14,515 bases of DNA from an uncultured Porphyromonadaceae bacterium (GTDB lineage Bacteria > Bacteroidota > Bacteroidia > Bacteroidales > Muribaculaceae). The position numbers and the translations under genes are program-made. Numbering within the stretch: the stretch's first letter is position 1; the number at the start of each line of letters is the position of its first letter. Location of the stretch: NCBI GenBank assembly GCA_905193485.1, contig CAJJOX010000034.1:1-14515 (forward strand), read 5' to 3'. The notes below the pieces were generated by a model. The model had not been told where the DNA came from. It made no database searches and worked only from the letters and a program-made list of their open reading frames with translations. Of this stretch, positions 347 to 14,350 are shown piece after piece.

Positions 347-526
347 TAAATAATTGATATAATCTTTTTTTGCTAATTCATAGCAGATTATAGGATTATA
401 CGGGAAAAGTGTGAAACAGGAAAATGCCCAAATATTTGGAGCTGCCACGCCGAACTGCTTGAAGACCAATGTGATGTAACTTCTTGCAGGATTGACAGCT
501 ATGCTTTTGATGTAAGGTGCGACCAT
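308..526 (-). pseudogene. Small unrecognised ORF, possibly a gene remnant
   Basis: This is a 72-residue frame starting MVAPYIKSIAVNPARSY. I do not recognise it. The same frame is open about ten codons further upstream, to a TAA, and reads DFGYNTEER before the Met. It may therefore be the 3' remnant of a larger gene, although the IS lies about 40 bp beyond. The first half has protein-like composition. The second half, after the outer repeat, is AT-rich and low complexity, as if the original end had been replaced by the repeat-bounded segment. There is no clear ribosome binding site. A short real gene or a chance ORF is possible. Confidence 0.25.
406..439. repeat. Right copy of outer inverted repeat
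   Basis: This copy pairs with 1-34, with one mismatch at the position that gives Val in one copy and Ile in the other. Its end, ccaaatatttgg (428-439), is a perfect 12-bp palindrome; the left copy has one mismatch there. It lies inside the minus-strand ORF at 308-526. Confidence 0.75.
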
Positions 527-572
527 GCGTTCTTCTGTATTATAACCAAAATCTTAACAATGAAAATTATTA

Positions 573-1878
<1,306 letters not shown>

Positions 1879-1903
1879 TGGTTAAATTTGGTTTTTGGCG
1901 AAA

Positions 1904-1936
1904 CAAAAATAACCATAAAGGGCTGACTCCTGCAAA
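1904..1936 (-). promoter_or_regulatory. Transposase promoter
   Basis: The minus strand shows TTTG at 1936-1933 and TATTTTTG at 1911-1904, separated by 21 nt. This fits the Bacteroidota primary sigma factor consensus closely. Transcription would start near 1897, about 20 nt before the transposase ATG. Confidence 0.7.
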
Positions 1937-1977
1937 TGGTAATCGACTTTAGTCGTTTGCTTTGCAAGAATCAGCCC
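1920..1977. repeat. Long imperfect hairpin in the right end of the IS
   Basis: Bases 1920-1936 pair with 1961-1977, 15 of 17 matching. One arm contains the -33 box of the transposase promoter. The IS's own transcript starts downstream and lacks the hairpin, whereas transcripts entering from outside would fold it. Several IS families use this arrangement to limit transposase made from impinging transcription. That role is inferred here. Confidence 0.65.
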
Positions 1978-2084
1978 TAATTTTTCAATTGCTCAAAAAG
2001 TTTAGCGGACAGTAATAATAAAAAATAGATTAATAAAAATATTAGTTGAATTTTTTGTCAATAGATATGTTGTAAACATGCGGT

Positions 2085-3875: not shown

Positions 3876-6314
3876 TTAAGATTTGTGCTTGGATTTTTTC
3901 GTGCCGAAACCGTTGTCGTAGTTGTAACCGTAACCATATCCGTAACCATAACCGTAGCGGTAGGAGTGTGAGTAGCCATAACGACCCTTGTCGTTGCGTG
4001 TGCCGTTGAGGATGAATGCCATGTTGCGGTATTTTTTCTCTTCATACAGACGGTCGATCTCGGGGAGCATAGAGCGCTCGAGAAGGCCGGCGCGGATTAT
4101 GAAGAATGTGCGGTCGACGTATCGGTCAATGATTTGTGCGTCGGCAACCACTTCAATCGGAGGACAGTCGATGACGATGTAGTCATATTCGGATTTCATC
4201 TTCTCGATGAGTTCGGCAAAACGGGGCGACTCGAGCAGTTCGGTGGGATTGGGAGGGTTGGAGACCACAGGAAGGAACGAGAGCGTGTCGCACATTTGAT
4301 CCTTGACGATAAGCGATGATAAATCATTGTCGGCTCCGCTGAGATAATCGGCGAGGCCGGTTGACGGCGAACCGATGTATGACGACGTGGAACCATGGCG
4401 CATGTCGCCGTCGATTATAAGAACCTTGCGGCCTTTCAGCGCAATCGAAGTGGCAAGATTGACGGAAATGAACGATTTTCCGGATCCGGGATTGAAAGAG
4501 GTGAAGGCTATCACTTTGGAACCGTCGATGGCGTTGCACATAAACTCGACGTTTGTGCGGAGCACGCGGAAGGCTTCGTTGATTATGTCGCGTTTGCCTT
4601 CGCGAACCACAATGGTGTTTGCTTCGGAGTGGTCTTTTTTCTTGCCGCGGCGGCCGTCTTTGGAGTATTGCGGAATCTCGCCGAGGAACGGAGTGGAGAG
4701 ATTTTCAACGTCTTTGCGTCCACGGAGTTTTGTGTTGCTTGTTGTGCGGACATATGTGACGCCAAACGGGATAGCCAACCCTATGATGAATGCCATGGCA
4801 AGGATGTTGCGACGGTTGGGCGTGGGTGGAACGCCTGAGAATCCGGGCTTATTAACGATGCGGGTATTATAGGCGGTAAACGCCTGTGAGAGTTCATTTT
4901 CCTCTCGTTTCTGAAGGAGGAATAGGTAAAGAGCCTCTTTAACTTTCTGTTGACGCTCGGTGGAAAGAAGGTTTTTGGCCTGAGTGGGATTGGACGCGAT
5001 ACGCGACATCGTTTTGGCCTCACTGCCACGGAGTGATTTCAACTGTGTGTCAAGAGCAATGATTTCGTTGTCGATAGAACTGATGACCGCCTGTCGTTGG
5101 GCATTGAGTTGCTCGTCAAGCTGAATGACAAGCGGATTCTTGTCTGATGATTTTATTACAAGCGAGTTGCGTTGAAGGAGTTTTTCATTGTATTCACTGA
5201 TAAGAGAAAGAACGCTGTTGCTACGCAGGCCTGTGCTTGCCGGCAGCAATTTGTCGCGGTTGCCTTCGGCGGTAAGATAGGAGCGGATGTAGCGTGCCAT
5301 GGAAAGCTGATTGCTCACATCGAGAATCTCTGCCTGTGTCTGCTGACTCTGGGTCATATACATTGATGCGGCGGCTTCTACATCGGGCACAAGGTTTTCG
5401 CTTTTGTAGGTCGAGATATCGGAATCGACGATGCCGAGTTCGCCTTCAATAACGCCAAGTCGTTCGTTGATGAAATTGGAGGTTGAAATTGCTATCTGGT
5501 TTTTGTCACGGATCCAGTTTTCGTTATAGATGCCAATAAGGGTATTAAGCACATCGTCGGCGCGTTGGGTCGACTGGTCGGATAGCGTGAGCTTCAGCAC
5601 GGTGCCCTTTTCGTTGGACATAGTCACTGTAAGCCGCCCGGTATAGGAGTCGATCGAAGCACTGAGCGGTTTTTTGTCAACGATCAGTTTCACTTCTTCC
5701 CCGGCCTTATAGTTCGGTGTGGGTGATACGACTATCTTGCCAACGGGCGTGGCAATGGAGTCGTTGAAGTTTCCGGTGAAATCGGTCGATGACGATTCGT
5801 GGCCGGGCACGGCAAGATCGCTGATGGTTACTTTGCCATCTTTGTTTACTGACAGATCCATCGACAGGCTGCCCTCGTCGGGGAAGCCGGAGAGCGAGAG
5901 TTTGACAGGCAGATCAGAACCATAGGCCACGACATCATGGAATCTGCCGTTGCGATAATAATTGATGTCGAGTCCAAGGCGTTTCACCACTTCTTCCATA
6001 AGATCTTTAGCCATGAGATTTGTCATCTCGTTCTGGATGTTGGTGCTTGACTGGAAAAGGCCAAGAGATTCAAACTCTGAACTGCTGATCGATTGACCGT
6101 TCTGATCGTCTTTGATCAGGATTTCCGCCGAACGGCTATAGACGGTCGGCGTTCGCAACAAATAGATATAGGCGACTCCTACGCAAATAAACACGGACAA
6201 CAATATCCATGGCCATTGGTGGATGGTAAGGAAAAATATGTCGGATAGGGGCACGGAGCCCGACTGATTTTGATGCTTTTTACTTGCTGTAAGCGTTTCT
6301 TTCACGTCAGCCAT
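3876..6314 (-). CDS. wzc: Wzc-type polysaccharide co-polymerase and tyrosine autokinase
   Basis: This 812-residue inner-membrane protein controls chain length and export of polysaccharide. The Wzz-type domain begins near residue 23 with a first membrane helix at about 35-53. A long periplasmic region with coiled-coil stretches (about 280-480) and the GNVR-like PPTPNRRN precede a second helix at about 503-522. The cytoplasmic bacterial tyrosine kinase domain has Walker A at 607-614 (FNPGSGKS), Walker A' at 631-638 (VLIIDGDM, D635 and D637) and Walker B around D716 (YIVIDCPP). The C-terminal tail carries ten tyrosines between 779 and 799, the autophosphorylated cluster. The nearby CpsB/CapC-type gene is the expected counteracting phosphatase. 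It starts 234 bp after the WecA-like gene. No promoter is clear in that gap, so read-through is likely. Confidence 0.93.
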   Translation of the reverse strand: MADVKETLTASKKHQNQSGSVPLSDIFFLTIHQWPWILLSVFICVGVAYIYLLRTPTVYSRSAEILIKDDQNGQSISSSEFESLGLFQSSTNIQNEMTNLMAKDLMEEVVKRLGLDINYYRNGRFHDVVAYGSDLPVKLSLSGFPDEGSLSMDLSVNKDGKVTISDLAVPGHESSSTDFTGNFNDSIATPVGKIVVSPTPNYKAGEEVKLIVDKKPLSASIDSYTGRLTVTMSNEKGTVLKLTLSDQSTQRADDVLNTLIGIYNENWIRDKNQIAISTSNFINERLGVIEGELGIVDSDISTYKSENLVPDVEAAASMYMTQSQQTQAEILDVSNQLSMARYIRSYLTAEGNRDKLLPASTGLRSNSVLSLISEYNEKLLQRNSLVIKSSDKNPLVIQLDEQLNAQRQAVISSIDNEIIALDTQLKSLRGSEAKTMSRIASNPTQAKNLLSTERQQKVKEALYLFLLQKREENELSQAFTAYNTRIVNKPGFSGVPPTPNRRNILAMAFIIGLAIPFGVTYVRTTSNTKLRGRKDVENLSTPFLGEIPQYSKDGRRGKKKDHSEANTIVVREGKRDIINEAFRVLRTNVEFMCNAIDGSKVIAFTSFNPGSGKSFISVNLATSIALKGRKVLIIDGDMRHGSTSSYIGSPSTGLADYLSGADNDLSSLIVKDQMCDTLSFLPVVSNPPNPTELLESPRFAELIEKMKSEYDYIVIDCPPIEVVADAQIIDRYVDRTFFIIRAGLLERSMLPEIDRLYEEKKYRNMAFILNGTRNDKGRYGYSHSYRYGYGYGYGYGYNYDNGFGTKKSKHKS
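3918..3980 (-). repeat. Gly-Tyr codon repeat in the kinase tail
   Basis: Residues 779-799 of the kinase are almost pure Tyr-Gly alternation, encoded by near-identical 6-base (GGT TAY) and 12-base units. The DNA repeat could change copy number by slippage in 6-base steps. That would keep the frame and change the number of phosphorylatable tyrosines. Confidence 0.7.
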
Positions 6315-6548: not shown

Positions 6549-7682
6549 TCAATCATATAGTTTGCAACCGAGTTTATTCTCCCGTCTGTGAATGGCATGT
6601 GTCAGACATGTGTTGATTATGATCCAGAATGCGAGGTTGCTGAAGAACAACACAGTGATATTGACAGACGAGCTCAGGAAATAATTTATCAATATGAGCA
6701 CTATCGATGATGCCACGATAGTTATCATCGCTTTGCGCTGGGAGAGGCCTGCTGCGAGCAATTTATGATGGATGTGGGTTTTGTCGGGGAGGAAAGGATT
6801 GCGGTGGGCGCGAAGACGATGGAGATACACACGGACGACATCAAATCCGGGAATCAGGAGCGGCGCAAACGCTATGATGGCAGGATTCTCACCGCTATGC
6901 GTCTGCGGTATGGAACAGGCCACTATGCTCATGACACTGAGGTATAGGCCGATGATCAATGCTCCGGTGTCGCCCATGAATATTTTACGATGTTTTCGGG
7001 CGTCGCCAAACACATTGAATGCGAAGAATGGCAGCAATGAGCCAAGCGTTGCCACAGCCAAAGCCGAATACGTGTAGAGCTCGTTTGACATGAACACGTA
7101 GACATAGAATCCGCAGGCAACGCCACTGAGGCCGGAAGCAAGTCCGTCGAGGCCGTCAATAAGGTTTATGGCATTGATGATGAAAATAATCAGCACAGCG
7201 GTGAGGAGGACAGAGATCACAAACGGCAGATTGTAGATTCCAAGAAACCCATGAAGATTTTCAATTCTCAGTCCTCCGATGATGAGCATTGCCGCAGAAA
7301 TGGTCTGCATGGCGAATTTCGCTCTGTATTTGACGCCTACAAGATCATCGGCCATGCCCGTGAGATAAAGAAGCACTGTGGCACAGCCTATGAAGCAAAG
7401 CGGAAGAACGTGCTTGAACAATCGGTGGATGAGATCAGCATCGTTCGACATCAGGCCGATTCCCAAGAGAAGGAGCAGCGCAAACAATATGGCGGGAAAG
7501 AAAGCGATTCCTCCAAGACGGGGCACCTCACTGGTGTGAATTTTGCGCGGATCGGGTTTGTCAAACAGGTTTTTGCGGAACGCGATCAGCAGGATCTGCG
7601 GTATGATGAATCCTGTGATTGTGACAACACATATCAAAACCAGCGCATTAATGAAAATCCATTGCATCATAAGACTAAACAT
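6549..7682 (-). CDS. WecA/MraY-family undecaprenyl-phosphate sugar-1-phosphate transferase
   Basis: This integral membrane enzyme would start the repeat unit by moving a sugar-1-phosphate, likely GlcNAc-1-P or a related HexNAc, from its UDP form to undecaprenyl phosphate. With the start at 7682 it is 377 residues with about ten or eleven membrane segments. Family motifs are present: the DD pair at about 112-113 (GMADDLVG), NLIDGLDGLASG with D176 and D179, FMGDTG with D238, and HIHH at 303-306. The FDKPDPRKIH segment early in the protein is typical of the WecA branch. The upstream frame to 7790 overlaps the phosphatase gene heavily and lacks family similarity, so I reject that start. Met at 7670 is an alternative. 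Start 7682 overlaps the preceding stop by 8 bp, implying coupling. Sugar specificity cannot be read from sequence. Confidence 0.9.
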   Translation of the reverse strand: MFSLMMQWIFINALVLICVVTITGFIIPQILLIAFRKNLFDKPDPRKIHTSEVPRLGGIAFFPAILFALLLLLGIGLMSNDADLIHRLFKHVLPLCFIGCATVLLYLTGMADDLVGVKYRAKFAMQTISAAMLIIGGLRIENLHGFLGIYNLPFVISVLLTAVLIIFIINAINLIDGLDGLASGLSGVACGFYVYVFMSNELYTYSALAVATLGSLLPFFAFNVFGDARKHRKIFMGDTGALIIGLYLSVMSIVACSIPQTHSGENPAIIAFAPLLIPGFDVVRVYLHRLRAHRNPFLPDKTHIHHKLLAAGLSQRKAMITIVASSIVLILINYFLSSSVNITVLFFSNLAFWIIINTCLTHAIHRRENKLGCKLYD

Positions 7683-8394
7683 TGTTTTTAATGAGTTGGC
7701 AAAGATTTGAACCGAGAATGCGAGGCAACCGCAGACTTTGCATTGATCCGACTTGCGCCATACGGTGCAGATCGGTTCCCGCGAAGTCATACATGCCGCG
7801 ATTCAGCAACTCCTTTGCTTTCTTCTGTGCCGGGATACCGTAATGACCCGACAGCGAAAGGATGTTGAGCTGAAATTTCACTCCGGCATCTTTCCAATCC
7901 CTGTATTGTGAAATTTTATTAACGTATGTGTATCTTTCCGGATGTGCCAGAAGCGGATGAAATCCGGCACTTTTGATTTTTTGAAATATGTCGTTGAGAT
8001 TTAACGGAGCATTGAAATAAGACGTTTCGATAAGCAACATGTCCGATTTCTCACCGATCGGCAATAGATCCCTGTTTTTCAGCCGCTCATAAAACAACGC
8101 GTCAATCATGTTTTCCGATGCAAGATGCAACATGATTGGTCCGTGATAATTTGATTGAAGTTCGTCGAATCTTTCTTTCAGTAATTCAGTCGAATTGGGC
8201 ATATCTTCCATTATATGTGGCGTAAGCCACACATTCTGAATGCCTATCCGCTCATATCGAGATAGGATTTCGAGCGATTCGCTCAGCGCCCCTACCCCAT
8301 CATCGACTCCCGGAAGAATATGGGAGTGAAAATCGGTGAATCCTGAAAGATCAACCGGAAATGCGTGGCGGAAAAGCTTGCTGAATATGGACAT
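7675..8394 (-). CDS. CpsB/CapC-type protein-tyrosine phosphatase (PHP-like)
   Basis: This 239-residue metal-dependent phosphatase of the CpsB/CapC (YwqE) family removes phosphate from the tyrosine cluster of the partner kinase. Metal-site motifs occur in the expected order: DFHSHILPGVDDG at 21-33 (D21, H23, H25), TPH ending at H60, E94 in ASEN, LLAHPERY with H151, and GTDLHR with D208 and H210. Length is normal. It lies 13 bp after the antiterminator gene and overlaps the WecA-like gene by 8 bp, so the three form a tight operon. The substrate is most likely the Wzc-type kinase encoded two genes downstream. The kinase-phosphatase cycle is established for the family; the pairing here is inferred from proximity. 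Confidence 0.92.
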   Translation of the reverse strand: MSIFSKLFRHAFPVDLSGFTDFHSHILPGVDDGVGALSESLEILSRYERIGIQNVWLTPHIMEDMPNSTELLKERFDELQSNYHGPIMLHLASENMIDALFYERLKNRDLLPIGEKSDMLLIETSYFNAPLNLNDIFQKIKSAGFHPLLAHPERYTYVNKISQYRDWKDAGVKFQLNILSLSGHYGIPAQKKAKELLNRGMYDFAGTDLHRMAQVGSMQSLRLPRILGSNLCQLIKNNV

Positions 8395-8407: not shown

Positions 8408-8962
8408 TTAGACGAACTGTATGTAATCGGGATCCACCTCCACCGCCGAAACGATGAAGCCGGGAATCTCGACTAATATGCGACGTGCGCGCATCCCCCT
8501 GACCGAAAGCAGGCGCCCCTCGAACCCATCGAGGACTCCTCCGACGATCCTGATGCTCCTGCCCAACATCGATGGCGTGAGCTCGTCGGGCATGTAATAT
8601 TTTGAATTATCACCACATGACGTCGCGCGTATGAAAATCTCCATATCGCGCTCCCTTACAGTGAGTGGCTCGCTGACGGGTTTCCCGATACAATACCGAT
8701 ACTGTATATTGGGATGCCTCATCACATGTGTATCCAGAATTTCCTTTGATTCGTGAACGAAAAGAAGATCCTGAATCACCGGCACATGCCTGCGCTGCCG
8801 TTTGCCTTTGACAGTCATAATCATATCCTTCATCGGGGTGAAAACTTCCAACCCCTCATTACGAAGGATATCATGCGCCATCACTTTGGCATTGCGACGG
8901 CTTAAATCGCGCAATGCGAACCACTTTTTCGGGGGGGGGGTACATATCGTATTTTGTGACAT
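8408..8962 (-). CDS. UpxY-like NusG-family transcription antiterminator (phase-variable candidate)
   Basis: This 184-residue protein has the NGN domain of NusG paralogues: KKWFALRDL at about 12-20, LEVFTPMKD near 38-46 and DLLFVHES near 65-72. A KOW-like segment, SIRIVGGVLDGFEGRLLSVRG, follows at about 136-156. In Bacteroides, UpxY proteins bind RNA polymerase in the leader of their own capsule operon and prevent early termination. This gene is first in its unit, about 190 nt after a promoter, and precedes the phosphatase, WecA-like, kinase and YjbH-like genes. Codons 8-11 contain ten consecutive C (8931-8940). At this length the frame is intact; at nine or eleven it would stop within about 30 codons. 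The start at 8962 has a GGAG about 10 nt upstream. No UpxZ partner gene is seen. It could belong to the related RfaH/LoaP groups, but context favours UpxY. Confidence 0.88.
   Translation of the reverse strand: MSQNTICTPPPKKWFALRDLSRRNAKVMAHDILRNEGLEVFTPMKDMIMTVKGKRQRRHVPVIQDLLFVHESKEILDTHVMRHPNIQYRYCIGKPVSEPLTVRERDMEIFIRATSCGDNSKYYMPDELTPSMLGRSIRIVGGVLDGFEGRLLSVRGMRARRILVEIPGFIVSAVEVDPDYIQFV
8931..8940 (-). repeat. C10 homopolymer in the antiterminator gene (ON length)
   Basis: Ten consecutive G on the + strand (C on the coding strand) begin 22 bases into the reading frame, ahead of the NGN domain in a Thr-Pro-Pro-Pro linker. Ten keeps the frame. Tracts of this length are typical slipped-strand mispairing switches. 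Confidence 0.85.
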
Positions 8963-9155
8963 AATGGCAATTCTCCAAATCCTGCCCGGCTTTTTACGAA
9001 ACTGAAAGCCAAGCAGTTGCCATATCAGGGTTAAAAGAACGTGTGTTTAGACCCTATCATTTTACACACTCGTTGGCATCGGCCCAACGTCTATTGGTTG
9101 TGAGCCTGAATGCCTTTACCTTAAGAACATTCTCTTCGTAACATAAAGAGAAATG
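8963..9155 (-). promoter_or_regulatory. Untranslated leader of the antiterminator operon
   Basis: This is about 190 nt between the predicted start site and the antiterminator ATG. Possible RNA hairpins occur at 9128-9155 (arms ACATTTCTCTT and AAGAGAATGT, one bulge), at about 9072-9092 (CGTTGG and CCAACG, 7-nt loop) and at about 9000-9020 (AACTG and CAGTT). A long structured leader is where UpxY-type proteins are known to act. No classical intrinsic terminator with a U-run is visible, so any termination would be Rho-dependent or pause-based. Confidence 0.5.
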
Positions 9156-9161
9156 TGATTG

Positions 9162-9193
9162 CAAAGATATGAAAAATTGCCGATACCGTCATA
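9162..9193 (-). promoter_or_regulatory. Promoter of the antiterminator operon
   Basis: TATCTTTG at 9169-9162 is an exact match to TAnnTTTG. A TATG at 9193-9190, 20 nt upstream, fits the -33 TTTG at three of four bases, next to a run of seven T on the minus strand. The position fits a new transcription unit starting after the GT2 gene. Confidence 0.6.
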
Positions 9194-9225
9194 AAAAAAC
9201 TTAATTTTTATGTCAGGCGCGATTT

Positions 9226-9245
9226 TTGTATGTGATTGTATGTGA
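9226..9245. repeat. Tandem 10-bp direct repeat upstream of the promoter
   Basis: ttgtatgtga occurs twice back to back at 9226-9235 and 9236-9245, about 70-90 bp upstream of the predicted start site. Two identical half-sites one helical turn apart are typical of a transcription factor site. The remaining sequence from 9246 to 9379 shows only AT-rich DNA and a weak hairpin at the GT2 stop. Confidence 0.4.
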
Positions 9246-9379
9246 ATGCGACAATAAAAAAGCGACCTATAAGGGCAGCATATCTATAGTATTTAGAACA
9301 ATATTTCCGGGGAAAAGATTAATTTGAGGCTAAGTGTTTTAATCGCGCCTACCCGGGAATGATCGTGTCGCATGCATTT

Positions 9380-10180
9380 TTATGCGTCATCTTTATGGCG
9401 ATCCGAAAAAGTATGGAATTTGGAGATTACGAGCTCTCCGATTTTTATCGGGTAGCGTAGAAAATCAAGAATATAACCCGTTTTCAAATTATACTTCCTG
9501 AAGGCCTTATGATGGTCGGAAATGATGTTGCGATGGCTTCTCAGACCGTTTGTCGAAGCACCGCCAAGGCGCATTGTGACAAAATCTGTAGGCAAATATC
9601 GAGTTTTGATGCGATTGATATAAATAAGCCTCAGCAGGTGCTCAAAATCGGCCGCGACTCTAAATCCGGTGTCAAACGAGCCGTAGCGGTCATAGATCGA
9701 CTTCTTGCAGTAAAACGACGGATGCGCGGGCTGATAACCCAAAAGCATCGTCCAGCGGTAGAAAAACCGTGAGGAATAATAGCGTACGCTTTTATTGAGG
9801 TCGGCGTCGGTTACGAAATGGATGTCGCCGAACACGGCGTCGACGCTTTCGTCGGTTGTGAAAGCTATGGCCACCTTGCTCAACACTCCGGCCGATGTGA
9901 AGAAATCATCAGAATTGAGAATGCCTATCACATCGCCCGATGCCATAGCTATGCCTTTGTTCATGGCGTCGTATATGCCATGGTCCGGTTCGCTGATCCA
10001 CTTCAGTCGCCCCAGATAAAGAGGCTCGGCCTCTTTGATAATCTCGACAGTGTTGTCTTTCGAGCCACCGTCGACGATGATATGCTCCCAGTCGGGATAA
10101 CTTTGCAGGAGGACGCTCCCGATAGTGTCACGAAGCGTGCCACCGCTATTGTAAGCTGCGGTGATAATTGAAATTTTCAT
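9380..10180 (-). CDS. GT2 family glycosyltransferase (GT-A fold)
   Basis: This 266-residue cytoplasmic or membrane-associated enzyme adds one sugar to the lipid-linked repeat unit. The N-terminus MKISIITAAYNSGGTLRDTI is the GT2 nucleotide-sugar-binding start. HIIVDGGSKDNT (D37), SEPDHGIYDAMNKGI (63-77) and the metal-binding NSDD (89-92) follow in the usual order. PAHPSFYCKK and the acceptor-side FRVAADFEHLLRL (with ADFE) match the WcaE-like subgroup. Length is normal. It is the last gene of the polysaccharide-building block: the next feature is a non-coding region with a new promoter. A weak hairpin overlaps its stop but lacks a U-run. Donor and acceptor cannot be deduced. Confidence 0.92.
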   Translation of the reverse strand: MKISIITAAYNSGGTLRDTIGSVLLQSYPDWEHIIVDGGSKDNTVEIIKEAEPLYLGRLKWISEPDHGIYDAMNKGIAMASGDVIGILNSDDFFTSAGVLSKVAIAFTTDESVDAVFGDIHFVTDADLNKSVRYYSSRFFYRWTMLLGYQPAHPSFYCKKSIYDRYGSFDTGFRVAADFEHLLRLIYINRIKTRYLPTDFVTMRLGGASTNGLRSHRNIISDHHKAFRKYNLKTGYILDFLRYPIKIGELVISKFHTFSDRHKDDA

Positions 10181-10205
10181 CAGACATTAAATAAAATCAG
10201 ATCCG

Positions 10206-10319
10206 TCAGAACCTGATGCCATATTCGGTTTTATCATTGAATTCATTGTTGATTCGTGACAAGACACGTTCCAAGGTGTCACAAATCGATTCTCCACTGT
10301 TATAAGTGGATGTGGTGGA
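10206..10319 (-). pseudogene. Possible 3' remnant of a lost gene
   Basis: Between the acyltransferase stop and the GT2 start, one minus-strand frame is open for 37 codons, from a TAG at 10322-10320 to a TGA at 10208-10206. It ends LERVLSRINNEFNDKTEYGI then RF, which reads like a real amphipathic helix followed by a protein C-terminus. It has no ATG. It may be the tail of a gene deleted during locus reshuffling, or chance. I do not recognise a family. Confidence 0.25.
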
Positions 10320-10332
10320 CTACGTGCCCGAA

Positions 10333-11362
10333 TTAAAAATGCAAATGCGGGCCGAGTTTCGTCGAAATTCTGCTATTCACGGCATAGAAGAGTGCTGCTG
10401 TAACAATGGATAAGCTTACGAGGGCAATCGCAAGCATGAAGTCGCCCCCGACTGTTGGATAAAATGGGAAATGAATAAGGTAAACTTCATAAGATATTAT
10501 TCCGCAAAAGATCAGAAACCCATTCCGGCGAATGAACGGCAAGATCGACACGATGCCAACAATACAGAGTGCAAATGCCATATTGTGCATCATCTGTATA
10601 AAAGAGTACAATGGTGAGCCTAAGTATTCACGGATCGCAGGCAATTGCTTAATCCCAAGGAAAAGGACTCCTATAAACGCGAAAACAGCCAGTTGAATCC
10701 ACATACTGCGGAGGCTGAACGTTGTCAGCTTGTCCTTATAACATGATGCAAGCACACCTAATATGAAGGCCGGTGTCTGTTCTACTTCCAGTGATCCAAG
10801 GGTGATGAACATCAAGACACCCACAATAGCAAGAATCAACACTCTTTGACGAGGGAAAAAGAGCATGGTCATAAAGAAAGCAAGATACCATTTTAGCTGA
10901 TATGCAACATACCAATACATTGTCTTCATGCCTGTGATTTCAAGAATGTAGCGAACAAGGTCAATATCATACTGTCTGAAAATCACGAGCAATGTAATGA
11001 CGATAGCATATGGCAACAATACTCTTGTAATTTTCTTGCCCCAAAATTTATTCAGTCCCTTTGAATTATAGGACTCCGACAATCCATATCCCGAACACAT
11101 CAGGAAAAGCGATACACCTAATGCCGGCAGTGGTGTAAAAACAACGGTGTGGAAAGTCCCGGAAATATGCCCTATAAGTATGAACAGGATAGCTATTCCC
11201 TTAATGCAATTGGTAGACTGAACGTCCAGTTTATACCCCCCCCCTCATGTGATCACCTATCTCTCTGATTTTGATAGGCTTATGACTTTTGATCCATGGA
11301 TATCTGATATTGAGGAAAGAGAAGGCCGCCAGGGTGATGAATAAGATAAGGATTTGAACCAT
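10333..11362 (-). CDS. Membrane acyltransferase (acyltransferase_3), switched out of frame by a G9 tract
   Basis: The gene as sequenced is frameshifted. From ATG at 11362 the frame encodes a membrane-helix start (MVQILILFITLAAFSFL) and reaches ATGAGG and nine G (11244-11236), then stops at TAA 11233-11231. The downstream frame begins after a TGA just before the tract and encodes YKLDVQSTNCIKGIAILFIL then IGH, the classic first helix of acyltransferase_3 with its conserved His. MCSGYG and the KKITRVLLPY motif follow, with about nine more helices, to a stop at 10333. Eight or eleven G would join the parts into 342-343 residues, normal for the family. Such enzymes move acetyl or other acyl groups onto polysaccharides across the inner membrane. 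The start lies 12 bp after the WcaF-like stop. In the current state only a truncated product from an internal start such as 11100 could form. Confidence 0.8.
11236..11244 (-). repeat. G9 homopolymer in the second acyltransferase (OFF length)
   Basis: Nine C on the + strand (G in the coding sense) follow ATGA at 11248-11245. The frame needs eight or eleven. An in-frame TGA (11247-11245) immediately precedes the tract in the downstream frame, so the OFF state gives clean loss of the protein. Confidence 0.85.
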
Positions 11363-11374
11363 TGATGAAATTGA

Positions 11375-11914
11375 TTATCGTTTACTTTTTAACACAGCAG
11401 GGTTTCCCTGATAAATAGTTGCTGCATCAAGTGACTTTGTTGCCACCGAACCAACTGCGAGCACCGCATCCTCACTTACAGTAACACCGGGACAAACAAC
11501 CGATTTAGCACCTACCCATGCCCCGTCTTCAATCGTTATCGGCTTTACAATAAGATCGAAGGTAACGGAGCGGAAATTATGATTGCCGCAAAGCAACATA
11601 GCGCCTTGACTGATACAGCAATTATTGCCGATTTTTACATAGCCAAGATTATCTATCCACACATCCTCTCCTATCCAAGAATAATCTCCGATTTCAAGAA
11701 GCCAGGGATATTTGATATTAACTCCAGGTTTAATGACAACACCTTTCCCTATCTTTGCACCATAAAGACGTAAAATTTTTATTTTAAGAATATTTACCGG
11801 ATTCCAATGATTTTTTATAAACAATAAATCAGTAAAATACCACAAAGCACGTTTTATTATATTCCCTCCAGGATTATACCAAGAGTTGTCATAAGTACTT
11901 AAATCAATATTCAT
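11375..11914 (-). CDS. WcaF-like polysaccharide O-acetyltransferase (left-handed beta-helix)
   Basis: This 179-residue enzyme of the hexapeptide-repeat family probably transfers acetyl from acetyl-CoA to a sugar of the repeat unit in the cytoplasm. The start at 11914 gives MNIDLSTYDNSWYNPGGN, the conserved WcaF opening; an upstream Met at 11935 adds seven unlike residues. KRALWYF, ILRLYGAKIGKGVVIKPGVN, IKYPWLLEIGDYSWIGEDVW and the catalytic-site CGNHNF (His at about 112) follow. The C-terminal turns GAWVGAKSVVCPGV and IYQGNPA complete the fold. It overlaps the end of the GT4 gene by 11 bp, so the two are co-translated. It contains no homopolymer tract, so this acetylation would be constitutive, unlike the two membrane acyltransferases. 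Confidence 0.92.
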   Translation of the reverse strand: MNIDLSTYDNSWYNPGGNIIKRALWYFTDLLFIKNHWNPVNILKIKILRLYGAKIGKGVVIKPGVNIKYPWLLEIGDYSWIGEDVWIDNLGYVKIGNNCCISQGAMLLCGNHNFRSVTFDLIVKPITIEDGAWVGAKSVVCPGVTVSEDAVLAVGSVATKSLDAATIYQGNPAVLKSKR

Positions 11915-13058
11915 ACACAAAATTGGGTTTGTCAATTTCCTTATTTAACCATAGATATAAATTGTTCATTTTTTGTGCAACTTTGTTTGCGCTAAAGTTT
12001 TGAAGTATATATTCTCTCCCTCGCAGTCCCATTGCATGCCTTTCTTCATCCGATAGAGAATAGAGTTCATCAATGACTGCAGCAATCGATTCCGGAGAAT
12101 TGTCGCGCCACCATCCGCAACGCTCCGAGTTAAGAGCCTCCCAGGGGGTTCCTAAAGATGCCATAACCGGTGTACCGACAATAAGTGCTTCCGGAATTAT
12201 CATTCCGAAATTTTCCATGTCGCTTGGCACAAACAGAGCATCCATCGTTGCCAATCGCTTAAACTTGTCTTTACCATTGATAAATCCGAGGAAATGAGTT
12301 CGATCCGAAATACTGAGACGTTTTGCTTCGTTTCGTAGAAATTCTTCATAGTCATCATCTCCTTTTCCCATTATGTAGACATTGACGTTTTCGTGTGATG
12401 ACAATGACACCCCATAAAGAAGGTTTTCAACCTTCTTTATGGGGTGTAGCCTTCCGAGAAAGGCTACACCCCATAATGGTGAAGCCTTTTTTCGCCGCGA
12501 TGAAAACAGGCCCTCGGTATAGTCAGGTACGGCCACGGGGTTGCCGATTACGGCAATAGGTCCCTTATATCCAAGAAGACGCAGATTTTCCATTTCCTTG
12601 TCACACGTCGCATGGATGCAAGAGGCTTCGCGTATATCTCTTCCAAACCATAATTTCTCTAACAGCCGTTTTTTCCATGAACTACGAGCCAATGCTTCCG
12701 GATAGAGCATTCCATGAGGTGTAATCAAATAGGGTTTTCCTTTCTGTCGGGCATGGATACAAGTTTCATGCACTATAAATTGCCAGAGCCCATTGGCATG
12801 ATATATGTCGTAATTATTGGCATCTAACCATTTTACAAAATTTCTAGAGTAATTAACAGGGCCTATACCATCGTTTTTATATTGTATATTCCATTTCTCA
12901 CCGTCCCCAAGAAGTCTGTCAGAATTGTTTTTTAGCGAAGGTGAGATTATATCTACGGATATATTTAATAAGTTTAGAAATTTAACGAGGTCATATGTAC
13001 ATGTGGCAATACCTCCGAATTTCGCCCCCATCCCTTCAATTGTATGTAATATTTTCAT
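11904..13058 (-). CDS. GT4 family glycosyltransferase (GT-B fold)
   Basis: This 384-residue retaining glycosyltransferase adds a sugar to the growing repeat unit. The N-terminal domain starts MKILHTIEGMGAKFGGIATC with the glycine-rich acceptor loop (about 13-17). ITPHGMLYP is at 112-120. The C-terminal donor domain opens with VAFLGRLHPIKKVENLL (198-214). The EX7E element is in DMENFGMIIPEALIVGTPV (E282 and E290). Length is typical. It starts 237 bp after the acyltransferase stop, an AT-rich gap without a recognisable promoter. Its stop overlaps the WcaF-like gene. Codons 195-218 form two overlapping perfect hairpins in the DNA. The sugar is not predictable. Confidence 0.93.
   Translation of the reverse strand: MKILHTIEGMGAKFGGIATCTYDLVKFLNLLNISVDIISPSLKNNSDRLLGDGEKWNIQYKNDGIGPVNYSRNFVKWLDANNYDIYHANGLWQFIVHETCIHARQKGKPYLITPHGMLYPEALARSSWKKRLLEKLWFGRDIREASCIHATCDKEMENLRLLGYKGPIAVIGNPVAVPDYTEGLFSSRRKKASPLWGVAFLGRLHPIKKVENLLYGVSLSSHENVNVYIMGKGDDDYEEFLRNEAKRLSISDRTHFLGFINGKDKFKRLATMDALFVPSDMENFGMIIPEALIVGTPVMASLGTPWEALNSERCGWWRDNSPESIAAVIDELYSLSDEERHAMGLRGREYILQNFSANKVAQKMNNLYLWLNKEIDKPNFVYEY
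12407..12476. repeat. Two overlapping perfect hairpins inside the GT4 gene
   Basis: Hairpin 1 has 19-bp arms at 12407-12425 and 12429-12447 with a 3-nt loop. Hairpin 2 has 17-bp arms at 12437-12453 and 12460-12476 with a 6-nt loop. They share ttatggggtgt (12437-12447), so only one can form at a time. The encoded protein (GRLHPIKK region) is a normal GT4 sequence. Confidence 0.9.
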
Positions 13059-13295
13059 AAAACTTATTATTGTATTGTTAAATTTTATGTTATCTCTTGC
13101 CTAAGAATATATCTTTAAAGTGGTTGTTCTTAGAAAGATATAGATGAATGATAGTATCTATAAATAAAGAAATGATTATTTACAGGATAATTCGAAAATG
13201 CGCGCTTATTTTGCGCGTGAAATATAAATCTTCGTTCGGCGGCCGCGGCGTGAAAACTTGGCTTGAGCACTATAAGGGTTCTCTGGGCGAGAGTG
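13059..13295 (-). other. AT-rich gap between acyltransferase and GT4 genes
   Basis: This 237-bp stretch has no supported gene and no TAnnTTTG promoter. It contains short interleaved inverted repeats at 13101-13142 and a 5-bp GC stem with an AT loop near 13201-13217, following the acyltransferase stop, which might weaken read-through. Confidence 0.4.
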
Positions 13296-14350
13296 TCAGG
13301 CGGCGGTATTCGACTGTATTGGGTTCCTCTTCGGCGACATGCCGAAGAGATATTTGGCCAGTATCGGACTTGTCCTGAGAAATGCGCTTATAGCCAATGA
13401 GCAACCGGTTATGACCAAAGTCAATGTCGCCACAACTAAAAATTCGAGAGTATAGTTTCGTCCATCAGAGAAATACTCGCCTATTATCGGCAGTGACGGC
13501 AAAAAGAAATAATGGATCATATATAGATCCAGTGTTCTTCGTCCTATAAATACAGCACACTTTTGCAACTTACCACTTTTGTTCCAATAATCTGCATTGT
13601 TTCGGAAGAGAGCGAATATGGTGACGGACAGAGTCATGCCGTCTATAAGGCGCACCACCTCCCAGGCAAATCCGGTCACAGGTAATCTTGCCGATCCATA
13701 TATTAGAAGCAGATTTGCCAACGGGATTATGACAATCAGAGTCAACAGCAACTTGTTTGATATAAACCGCACAAACATGTCATTGTATTTTTTACAGAAC
13801 AATCCTAAAAGGAATGCACCGAAATAATTTCCAAGTTGATAAAGGCAAAGATTACTTGAAAATCTGATTGAGGTCATCTTGAAACTGAAAACGAACATGA
13901 ACAGGCATATGCAGATCAAGAGTATGTCTTCCGTAATAGGTTTGCACCGCCTCATCAAAAAAGAAACACTGAAATATATGAAAAACAATTCAAACAGAAC
14001 CTCTGTAAACCAGAAACCGGCAGGAAATCCCCACGGATAAATTTGGATATACACCAATATTGACCAGAACACCATAGTCGGCACCAAGAGCATGATTGCC
14101 TTGTTTAGAATCTCTTTTCCGTAAAGAGAAGCAGACCATTGACGTTTTTTATAAGCAAGATAGCCGCTAATGAAAAAGAACATGTGCACCATGACCGCAT
14201 TGAAGAAAGTTCCTATTGGAGAAGATTCAGGCGACAATTTAAAACTGAAAAGACGCACATGACAGTAGATGACCATCAGCATCGACAATCCCCTCAGCAC
14301 GTCAAGGTAATATATTCTCCCCCCCCCGTTATCAGGCTCACTTCTTTCAT
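13296..14350 (-). CDS. Membrane acyltransferase (acyltransferase_3), switched out of frame by a G9 tract
   Basis: This is a multi-helix inner-membrane acyltransferase predicted to acetylate or acylate the polysaccharide. The natural ATG at 14350 reads MKEVSLIT then nine G (14327-14319), and at this length runs to a TGA after 18 codons. The downstream frame, open from a TAA at 14363-14361 but without ATG, encodes RIYYLDVLRGLSMLMVIYCH, a typical first helix with conserved Arg and His. Later segments (FFISGYLAYKKR and about nine hydrophobic helices) run to the stop at 13296. Ten or seven G restores MKEVSLITGGGRIYYLDV and a 350-351-residue protein, normal for the family. A GTG at 14300 could start a form lacking the first 17 residues. 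A GGA lies close upstream of the ATG. The partial gene upstream ends 47 bp before it. Confidence 0.82.
14319..14327 (-). repeat. G9 homopolymer in the first acyltransferase (OFF length)
   Basis: Nine C on the + strand start 24 bases into the reading frame, between a short variable leader peptide and the first membrane helix. Ten or seven would restore the frame. Confidence 0.85.

Follow-up and report, generated by a model that had tools for sequence, protein, structure and literature searches.

Gene content and homopolymeric tracts of the locus

The window, that is, the whole 14,515-nucleotide stretch of Bacteroidales DNA analyzed here, carries the following polysaccharide genes and tracts:

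13296–14350, minus strand: acyl2, membrane acyltransferase (PF01757 on the body); ATG 14350 and body 13296–14318 in different frames
14319–14327, minus strand: G9 tract (coding strand) of acyl2, codons 8–11 of ATG 14350
11904–13058, minus strand: family 4 glycosyltransferase, tract-free (PF00534, PF13439)
11375–11935, minus strand: WcaF-family hexapeptide acetyltransferase, tract-free (NF007797 above cut-off, PF00132)
10333–11362, minus strand: acyl1, membrane acyltransferase (PF01757 on the body); ATG 11362 and body 10333–11235 in different frames
11236–11244, minus strand: G9 tract (coding strand) of acyl1, from codon 40 of ATG 11362
9380–10180, minus strand: family 2 glycosyltransferase, tract-free (PF00535)
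8408–8962, minus strand: upxY, UpxY-family NusG-like antiterminator, from upstream ATG 8962 (NF033644, PF02357, leader alignment)
8931–8940, minus strand: C10 on the coding strand, in the opening codons of upxY, immediately before the NusG-like domain with its conserved start KKW(F)ALRDL
7675–8394, minus strand: CpsB/CapC-type phosphatase (PF19567)
6549–7790, minus strand: WecA-like polyprenyl-phosphate sugar-phosphate transferase (PF00953; TIGR02380 below cut-off)
3876–6314, minus strand: Wzc-like co-polymerase/tyrosine autokinase (PF13614, PF13807, PF02706; TIGR01007 above cut-off)

The tracts listed are the only C/G runs of seven or more in the window (on the forward strand, G10 at 8931–8940 and C9 at 11236–11244 and 14319–14327), which otherwise holds one A7 and one T7 of such length. 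They lie near the starts of the two membrane acyltransferase genes and of upxY, which bears out a preliminary description of three C/G runs of 9–10 near starts and none elsewhere, with a WcaF-like acetyltransferase free of tracts. That description put the chance expectation of C/G runs of nine or more below 0.1; base composition indeed predicts 0.035, against the three present, and across 2,000 dinucleotide-preserving shuffles the mean was 0.037, none having three or more. Set against the 80 such runs counted in 37.2 Mb of twelve relatives' genomes, three in 14.5 kb correspond to a Poisson P of ~5 × 10⁻⁶, assuming an even spread. As at contingency loci, the runs are thus longer than chance predicts and placed where length sets frame or expression. 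In the window, both acyltransferases have their ATG out of frame with the body, as expected from the earlier reading of both acylations as OFF, and the upxY frame is open.

A C10 tract in the first codons of upxY

The antiterminator assignment of the tract-bearing gene is upheld by a score of 117.6 bits against NF033644 (cut-off 100) and by a match to the PF02357 NusG domain. Gene order (UpxY-cpsB-wecA-wzc) and a 5' leader hairpin fit UpxY as the first gene of a polysaccharide operon, and the protein is predicted to act as an antiterminator here; in Phocaeicola vulgatus, a polysaccharide is reported to need UpxY (PMC13114119).

The tract spans codons 8–11 counted from ATG 8962, or codons 2–5 from the conserved upxY start codon, ATG 8945. 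Owing to C10, this conserved ATG is out of frame in the window, and the frame opens only from the upstream staggered ATG 8962, a start common to 1 of 17 aligned relatives. A second copy, P0001, is identical to the window UpxY (100% over 96% of the query), and its N-terminus, MENCHYVTKYDMYPPPKKW, corresponds to the other frame ahead of the run, implying a C9 tract probably read from the conserved ATG. Both lengths leave the gene readable and two of the three registers look translatable, so that the tract resembles a dial rather than the plain ON/OFF switch of polymer assembly proposed earlier. For the same reason, and because the open frame depends on a non-conserved upstream ATG, the proposed 'polymer ON' state is insecure, even if the frame is open.

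An equivalent of the UpxY tract was matched in 0 of 397 family genomes in a search run with a positive control, and none of the 80 further distinct UpxY loci has a counterpart at its coding start. The tract could therefore be a recent accident. A neutral origin, namely chance expansion of C-rich codons with length changes tolerated since two ATGs cover two frames, is a serious contender, if less likely than not; it is compatible with switching of the acyltransferases. This missing counterpart, the C-rich codons (CCC TCC) of some relatives at the tract site and the apparent readability of both observed registers all favor it, whereas a C10 run is itself very improbable and the third register would silence UpxY, selected or not.

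The upxY upstream region has a single palindromic half-site

Upstream of upxY, the following elements were recognized:

8960–9019, minus strand: conserved UpxY leader hairpin (CTGCTTGGCTTT...AAAAGCCGGGCAG), then GCAGGAYTTGRAGAATTGCC
9030–9080, minus strand: terminator-like GTGTG..CACAC followed by TTCTTTT, read by eye, unscored and absent from the sites listed by the sigma-70 scan
9132–9150, minus strand: CTCTT..AAGAG palindrome, at the position of the proximal inverted-repeat arm of relatives
9162–9169, minus strand: candidate −7 box TATCTTTG for upxY, a consensus match

A covarying hairpin, AACTGCTTG...GCAGGAYT, is a mark of UpxY leaders. A search of the window leader against Rfam returned 0 matches at the gathering threshold, which rules out a known Rfam element, and the literature searched held no description of the hairpin. 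In several relatives, GAGGC..GCCTC plus TTTCTTTTT occupies the place of the terminator-like element.

The candidate −7 box is the sole minus-strand TANNTTTG between 1912 and 14515; matches to this motif, which we take to be the Bacteroides −7 consensus, number ten in the window, against a chance mean of 9.97, and a sigma-70 scan of the window gave 19 promoter-like sites where 16.1 were expected. Because upxY lies downstream of the acyltransferase and glycosyltransferase genes and comes with a leader and a candidate promoter of its own, the preliminary claims of one polysaccharide and eight surface states stay unproven.

No distal partner of the palindrome was found up to 10400, nor any inverted-repeat pair of 13 or more bases flanking the upxY promoter within ~1.06 kb or of 15 or more within 1.2 kb. 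Three inverted repeats of 10–11 bases occur at 8900–9480, two of them crossing each other. Hence, the window upxY is unlike an inverton-controlled UpxY locus, with one palindromic half-site only.

An invertible-promoter-like element at the left end, and inverted repeats before upxY in relatives

The left end of the window carries three further features:

1–439, no strand assigned: invertible-promoter-like segment with nested inverted repeats 1–34/406–439 (97%) and 96–118/324–346 (100%)
452–511, plus strand: another leader hairpin of the UpxY type, on the downstream side of the inverted-repeat segment (36.9 bits with model R1, E 5 × 10⁻⁹)
566–2019, minus strand: IS4-family element with perfect 20-bp terminal inverted repeats

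Within the first segment, TTTG-N-TANNTTTG occurs at 129–162 on the minus strand, one of two promoter matches of this type in the window (0.43 expected). Inverted repeats thus flank a putative promoter, as in invertons, the promoter being a consensus match only and directed away from the second leader. The IS4 element begins, at its left end, three bases past ATG 560–562; no recombinase other than its transposase was found among the window ORFs scanned against families. With this nested element at the left end, the contrast with inversion systems drawn in the preliminary description fails.

Of the first 32 relatives, 25 have inverted repeats of 15 or more bases before upxY, as do 45 of 81 distinct loci in a larger sample, by a loose test that also accepted some repeats that are not inverton-like; a stricter comparison had reduced to 81 the 88 loci first kept as distinct. 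Tracts of eight or more near upxY number seven among these 81, window included. Mutual exclusion of tracts and invertons looked promising in the first 32 loci and was discarded with 81, where tracts accompany 4 of the 45 loci with such repeats and 3 of the 36 without (Fisher P 1.0). Two related loci differ in run length at the same non-coding place, ~265 bases before upxY (C10 in L014 vs C9 in L016).

Tract sites and frame states of the membrane acyltransferases

A natural copy of acyl1, P0121, is 99% identical over the body and in frame through the tract. The closest match to acyl2, P0152 (99% identical), is called from an internal Met only; its contig is just 3185 bases long, and truncation instead of a frame change may account for this. 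Two or more Gs occupy the acyl1 tract site in 10 of 14 aligned rows (chosen from 31 hits) and the acyl2 site in 6 of 17 (chosen from 34 hits; GG/GGG in relatives). Among acyl2-type genes of relatives, 3 of the 27 readable have a C/G run of 7–9 no more than 75 bases ahead of the conserved start motif. Matches of any kind to acyl1 were limited to 10 of 397 family genomes, the best at 43% identity, which left no DNA of close relatives.

Near-identical copies thus differ in run length or frame, as at contingency loci: P0001 has another frame before the UpxY tract and P0121 is in frame across that of acyl1, pointing to natural variation in run length. P0001, P0121 and P0152 were compared as protein sequences, so their tract lengths are implied ones, and they come from separate assemblies, where homopolymer sequencing or assembly error is possible. 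With near-identical genes on other assemblies in different frames at two runs, the tracts look like random switches, in support of the two membrane-acylation tracts proposed earlier.

The acyltransferases might instead be decaying or misassembled, their tracts being frameshifts in dying genes or consensus errors, as their out-of-frame state in the window and the assembly origin of the compared copies would allow. However, apart from the tracts, the bodies have open frames of 300 and 340 codons and match PF01757, and an intact 99%-identical acyl1 exists. Moreover, no C/G run of nine or more occurs in the window other than those that carry the two lesions and the length difference of UpxY, and the run site is kept in acyl1 and acyl2 homologues; we consider this explanation improbable. 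Programmed slippage of RNA polymerase or ribosome, with a fixed full-length fraction made from any tract length, is compatible with everything in the sequence, and G9 and C10 runs are in principle long enough for it, but an in-frame acyl1 copy is needless for a slippage-dependent gene and run lengths vary among relatives, making it very unlikely.

Census of C/G runs in relatives' genomes

In the twelve relatives' genomes with complete place lists, out of 22 scanned, PF01757 genes hold 9 of the 80 C/G runs of nine or more, against 0.17 expected (binomial P 2 × 10⁻¹³, even placement assumed). Acyltransferases are tract hotspots in relatives, an enrichment in surface genes of the kind seen at contingency loci. 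The first eight genomes (7 of 55 runs, 0.13 expected) were not a blind choice, since acyltransferase-like genes at runs were already known in G014, G017, G019 and G020. Omitting G014, labelled Ruminiclostridium, leaves 6 of 49, and a further acyltransferase run in these eight (L148, read by eye; it would be the eighth) was left uncounted. In the last four (G003, G006, G007 and G016), whose acyltransferase tracts were previously unseen, the count is 2 of 25 (0.05 expected, P 1 × 10⁻³), or 2 of 40 (P 3 × 10⁻³) with G001, G008 and G021, whose runs were partly read and yielded no acyltransferase. The remaining 71 runs lie outside PF01757 genes, many of them intergenic or in ordinary glycine-rich proteins, and the census keeps contig-end runs as well as those of extreme length, which in G003 and G006 are probably artefacts. 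The UpxY tract differs in this respect, with no match among the 397 family genomes.

The preliminary description also suggested a look for altered mismatch repair genes. Altered repair is not indicated by the relatives and was rejected as a cause: of 12 of their genomes, 11 have mutS scoring above the family cut-off and the twelfth a partial match, which argues against very high slippage rates.

A model for tract-dependent variation

We consider it likely that in this bacterium, a member of the Bacteroidales and probably of the Muribaculaceae, the runs in polysaccharide genes act as slipped-strand contingency tracts, those of acyl1 and acyl2 as switches and that of upxY in a different manner. 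Replication slippage in G/C runs of 9–10 would change the frame near the acyl1 and acyl2 starts, so that the acyl group would be added or omitted, cell line by cell line. In upxY, two ATGs in different frames precede the run: one length, as in P0001 (implied C9), would be read from the conserved ATG, the C10 of the window from the upstream ATG, and the third register would be served by neither. UpxY would accordingly be made in a high amount, in an altered amount or not at all, with read-through of the UpxY-cpsB-wecA-wzc operon following. We infer that slippage is frequent and reversible and that surface acylation and UpxY dosage change with it.

More speculatively, and rather unlikely as a whole, the antiterminator may be under a homopolymer dial, with two translated registers and one silent given by the staggered starts. 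A promoter inverton would have been lost, leaving one half-site, and one-base slippage would rescale the whole polysaccharide operon as the other runs toggle decorations.

Comparison with known systems

Contingency runs of Campylobacter and Neisseria have lengths of 8–10. As far as the accessible portions of the reports describe, these poly-G/C loci (capsule and LOS genes in Campylobacter jejuni) have simple repeats in surface-glycan genes that are hypermutable and whose length decides expression, as is predicted for the window (PMC8437040, PMC13317227). Unlike them, the window is from Bacteroidales, has one tract in a processive antiterminator, and has relatives in which mutS is present. The Haemophilus lic2A repeat is made of four-base units. 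In H. influenzae lic2A, the repeat is preceded by several start codons in different frames, as is the upxY run, with output described in the cited excerpt as graded rather than ON/OFF (cited in PMC4235727). The window differs in having a mononucleotide run, in a regulator.

The Akkermansia muciniphila acyltransferase Amuc_2098 likewise combines a long C run (C10) with a capsule locus in a gut commensal, and a slippage switch was proposed for it (PMC3048395), capsule switching being later linked to an invertible DNA region (PMC13343947); it belongs to another phylum and, in the sections available, comes without an antiterminator tract. Slippage was also suggested within the Bacteroidales, for an acetyltransferase of the Bacteroides fragilis PSI/9 polysaccharide locus, from a frameshift in a run of only four Cs, and the extract at hand contains no enrichment test (PMC3090145). 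UpxY is also first in the polysaccharide operon at Bacteroides/Phocaeicola loci, which lie behind invertible promoters and are phase-variable in production (PMC13114119). In contrast, the window upxY has no inverted-repeat pair, and its variable element is a C run in the coding start.

Implications for surface variation

To our knowledge, phase variation in gut Bacteroidales has been studied mainly as DNA inversion. The leader hairpin provides a concrete candidate site for UpxY recruitment, and the acyltransferase enrichment makes switching testable in existing accurate long reads. Should the runs in the acyltransferases and the antiterminator indeed switch as well, a second level of surface variation that matters for phages and immune recognition is being overlooked.

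Homopolymeric tracts cluster in a polysaccharide locus

The three tracts of the preliminary description, C10 in upxY (8931-8940) and G9 in each of two membrane acyltransferase genes, acyl1 (11236-11244) and acyl2 (14319-14327), are present as described; no other C/G run in the window reaches seven. Its figure of fewer than 0.1 chance runs also holds: for C/G runs of at least nine, composition gives 0.035 in the window, and three or more such runs arose in none of 2000 dinucleotide-preserving shuffles. The twelve relatives' genomes with complete run lists contain 80 C/G runs of nine or more in 37.2 Mb; at so low a density, three tracts in 5.4 kb constitute a cluster (P ~5e-6 under even spread).

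All identified genes between 2085 and 14350 lie on the minus strand, in the order acyl2, GT4, WcaF-type acetyltransferase, acyl1, GT2, UpxY, CpsB, WecA-like, Wzc-like and two YjbH-like pieces. Among named genomes, the three UpxY loci nearest to the window's own (65, 60 and 60% identity) carry Muribaculaceae titles, as do 12 of all 34, Muribaculum included. Bacteroidales-type polysaccharide loci also occur under the record titles Ruminiclostridium (L013), Phocaeicola (L016) and Acetatifactor (L023), L016 and L023 being close copies of L014 and L022, respectively; some bins therefore look mixed.

Acyltransferase tracts are likely contingency tracts

For ACYLTRANSFERASES (acyl1 and acyl2), both bodies match the acyltransferase family PF01757 with open frames, and in each gene the start codon is out of register with the body. 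A natural protein 99% identical to acyl1 (P0121) has the same start, MVQILILF, in frame across the tract site; an intact acyl1 copy with a run length other than the window's therefore exists. The acyl2 counterpart (P0152, 99% identical) has an internal Met as its start, the choice expected of gene-calling software when the true start is out of frame, and is weak evidence because its contig is short. Homologues down to about 35-43% identity carry a glycine run at the same place, with at least GG in 10 of 14 acyl1 and 6 of 17 acyl2 aligned rows, picked from 31 and 34 hits, respectively. At the DNA level, 30 acyl2-type loci were read out of 136 family genomes with a match; three lacked the start motif, and a C/G run of 7-9 lies just ahead of it in 3 of the 27 readable genes. 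PF01757 genes hold 9 of the 80 runs in the twelve genomes versus 0.17 expected, the first eight genomes not being a blind choice; the four added last place 2 of 25 runs in such genes (P 1e-3). Some runs split PF01757 genes into two frames (G017:C3 and G020:C7). The acyltransferase tracts are likely contingency tracts.

Of the four runs of nine or more in the Bacteroides bouchesdurhonensis genome, three sit inside 2.2 kb; these lie 12-14.5 kb downstream of a same-strand upxY, and two of them fall in PF01757 genes. The cluster belongs to one polysaccharide locus (L065):

12928, G9 run
13662, G13 run
15073, G12 run

In the L004 locus, an acyltransferase-like gene (by eye), with cpsB and wecA on either side, has a C8 run at its start. 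Three G9 runs share a 20-kb stretch of L068 (6862, 7808 and 14938), located by eye at an acetyltransferase-like start, a GT2-like frame break and one further gene. L148 (G018:C2) has, by eye, an acyltransferase-like gene with G9 near its start and a frame break near a later T run. A non-coding run ahead of upxY is C10 in L014 (7735-7744) and C9 at the same place in L016 (7736-7744), a natural length difference between closely related loci.

Slippage has been suggested, in the available portions of the reports, for one B. fragilis acetyltransferase (PMC3090145) and in Akkermansia (PMC3048395). Neither a poly-G/C system in Bacteroidales polysaccharide loci nor a tract in an antiterminator was found described in the accessible portions of the literature searched.

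The UpxY tract is not a simple switch

Alignment with 17 relatives identifies the ATG at 8945, directly ahead of the run, as the counterpart of the conserved UpxY start codon; at C10 it is out of frame. The ATG that opens the upxY frame lies at 8962, a position with ATG in one of the 17 relatives (L002). A natural UpxY protein (P0001), which matches 96% of the query at 100% identity, reads the other frame ahead of the run, which fits a predicted C9 and the conserved start; its start as called corresponds to a TTG further up. The simple ON/OFF gating proposed for UpxY fails, because each of the two observed lengths has an in-frame ATG. In H. influenzae lic2A, start codons in different frames are described as giving graded output (cited in PMC4235727, seen in excerpt). 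An equivalent run was found in none of 397 family genomes by a pattern search that detects the window, and in no coding start among the other 80 distinct UpxY loci, so that, within the scope of these searches, no other lineage shares the tract. The tract is real; it is possibly a dial, possibly an accident.

The available text of PMC7819879 describes UpxY proteins as blocking premature termination inside 5' leaders, and that of PMC13114119 reports polysaccharide abolished upon upxY loss in P. vulgatus. In the window, acyltransferase and glycosyltransferase genes come first, followed by UpxY with its own leader hairpin (8960-9019). The UpxY leader region also has a stem that resembles a terminator and, at 9162-9169, a candidate -7 box. 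Another terminator-like site (10217-10196) has acyl1 on one side and GT2 on the other, the window scan giving 10 such sites versus 5.0 expected. In relatives, UpxY precedes cpsB/wecA/wzc wherever those genes were located. Because of this own leader, the terminator-like sites, the candidate box and the relatives' gene order, we read the sequence as probably more than one transcription unit. The 'eight states' earlier derived from the three tracts are arithmetic, not evidence.

Candidate inversion elements accompany many UpxY loci

The contrast initially drawn with inversion systems does not stand, a segment resembling an invertible promoter being present at the left end:

1-439, inverted repeats, one pair nested in the other (34 bases, 97%; 23 bases, 100%)
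452-511, plus strand, second UpxY-type leader hairpin, after the 1-439 segment
566-2019, IS4-family element; its terminal inverted repeats match perfectly over 20 bases

The repeats enclose a minus-strand match to the TTTG-N-TANNTTTG promoter, which points away from the plus-strand leader; this predicted promoter, a consensus match, is in the OFF orientation. The IS4-family element begins three bases past an ATG (560-562), itself 3' of the left-end leader. Inverted repeats of 15 or more precede upxY in 25 of the first 32 relatives, those with enough upstream DNA, versus 6 of 138 control segments, and in 45 of 81 loci of a larger sample; the window's upxY retains only a palindromic half-site (9132-9150). 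Homopolymers as a replacement for invertons were rejected, no association appearing across 81 distinct UpxY loci.

A conserved hairpin marks UpxY leaders

A conserved and covarying hairpin (AACTGCTTG..GCAGGAYT) lies ahead of UpxY genes, at 8960-9019 (minus) and 452-511 (plus) in the window and in the leaders of L001-L034. Thirty-two leaders, the window's among them, align over 60 columns with one single-base gap. In the stem, 85.5% of cells pair, and 53 cells changed on both sides versus 18.8 +/- 3.6 when shuffled (0/500 as high) and at most 23 when the stem is slid, the stem having an advantage over slid versions as it was drawn from the same 32 sequences. Pairs with both-side change were less striking (7 versus 5.8; 24/500). 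Among 62 UpxY loci beyond these, the model built from the 32 found 45 at E 0.01, and 39 of 54 once loci sharing DNA with the training set or each other were dropped.

In eight genomes, the model gave 12 hits, 10 directly ahead of UpxY genes and two ahead of Wza-type operons. Those 10 genes are the top-scoring ten of 22 UpxY-like matches; the others lacked a hairpin hit among the 150 candidates scored per genome, one of these matches (G018:C81) lying at a contig end. The Wza-type operons (by eye; L146 on G018:C18, L147 on G018:C54) have the hairpin without UpxY, and their first gene encodes an unknown protein, about 130 residues long and lacking a Pfam match. Hairpins at UpxY-less operons hint at action in trans. 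At the gathering threshold, the window matches no Rfam entry, and no description of the hairpin was found among the matches listed from open-licence literature. We suggest the leader hairpin as a putative UpxY recruitment site.
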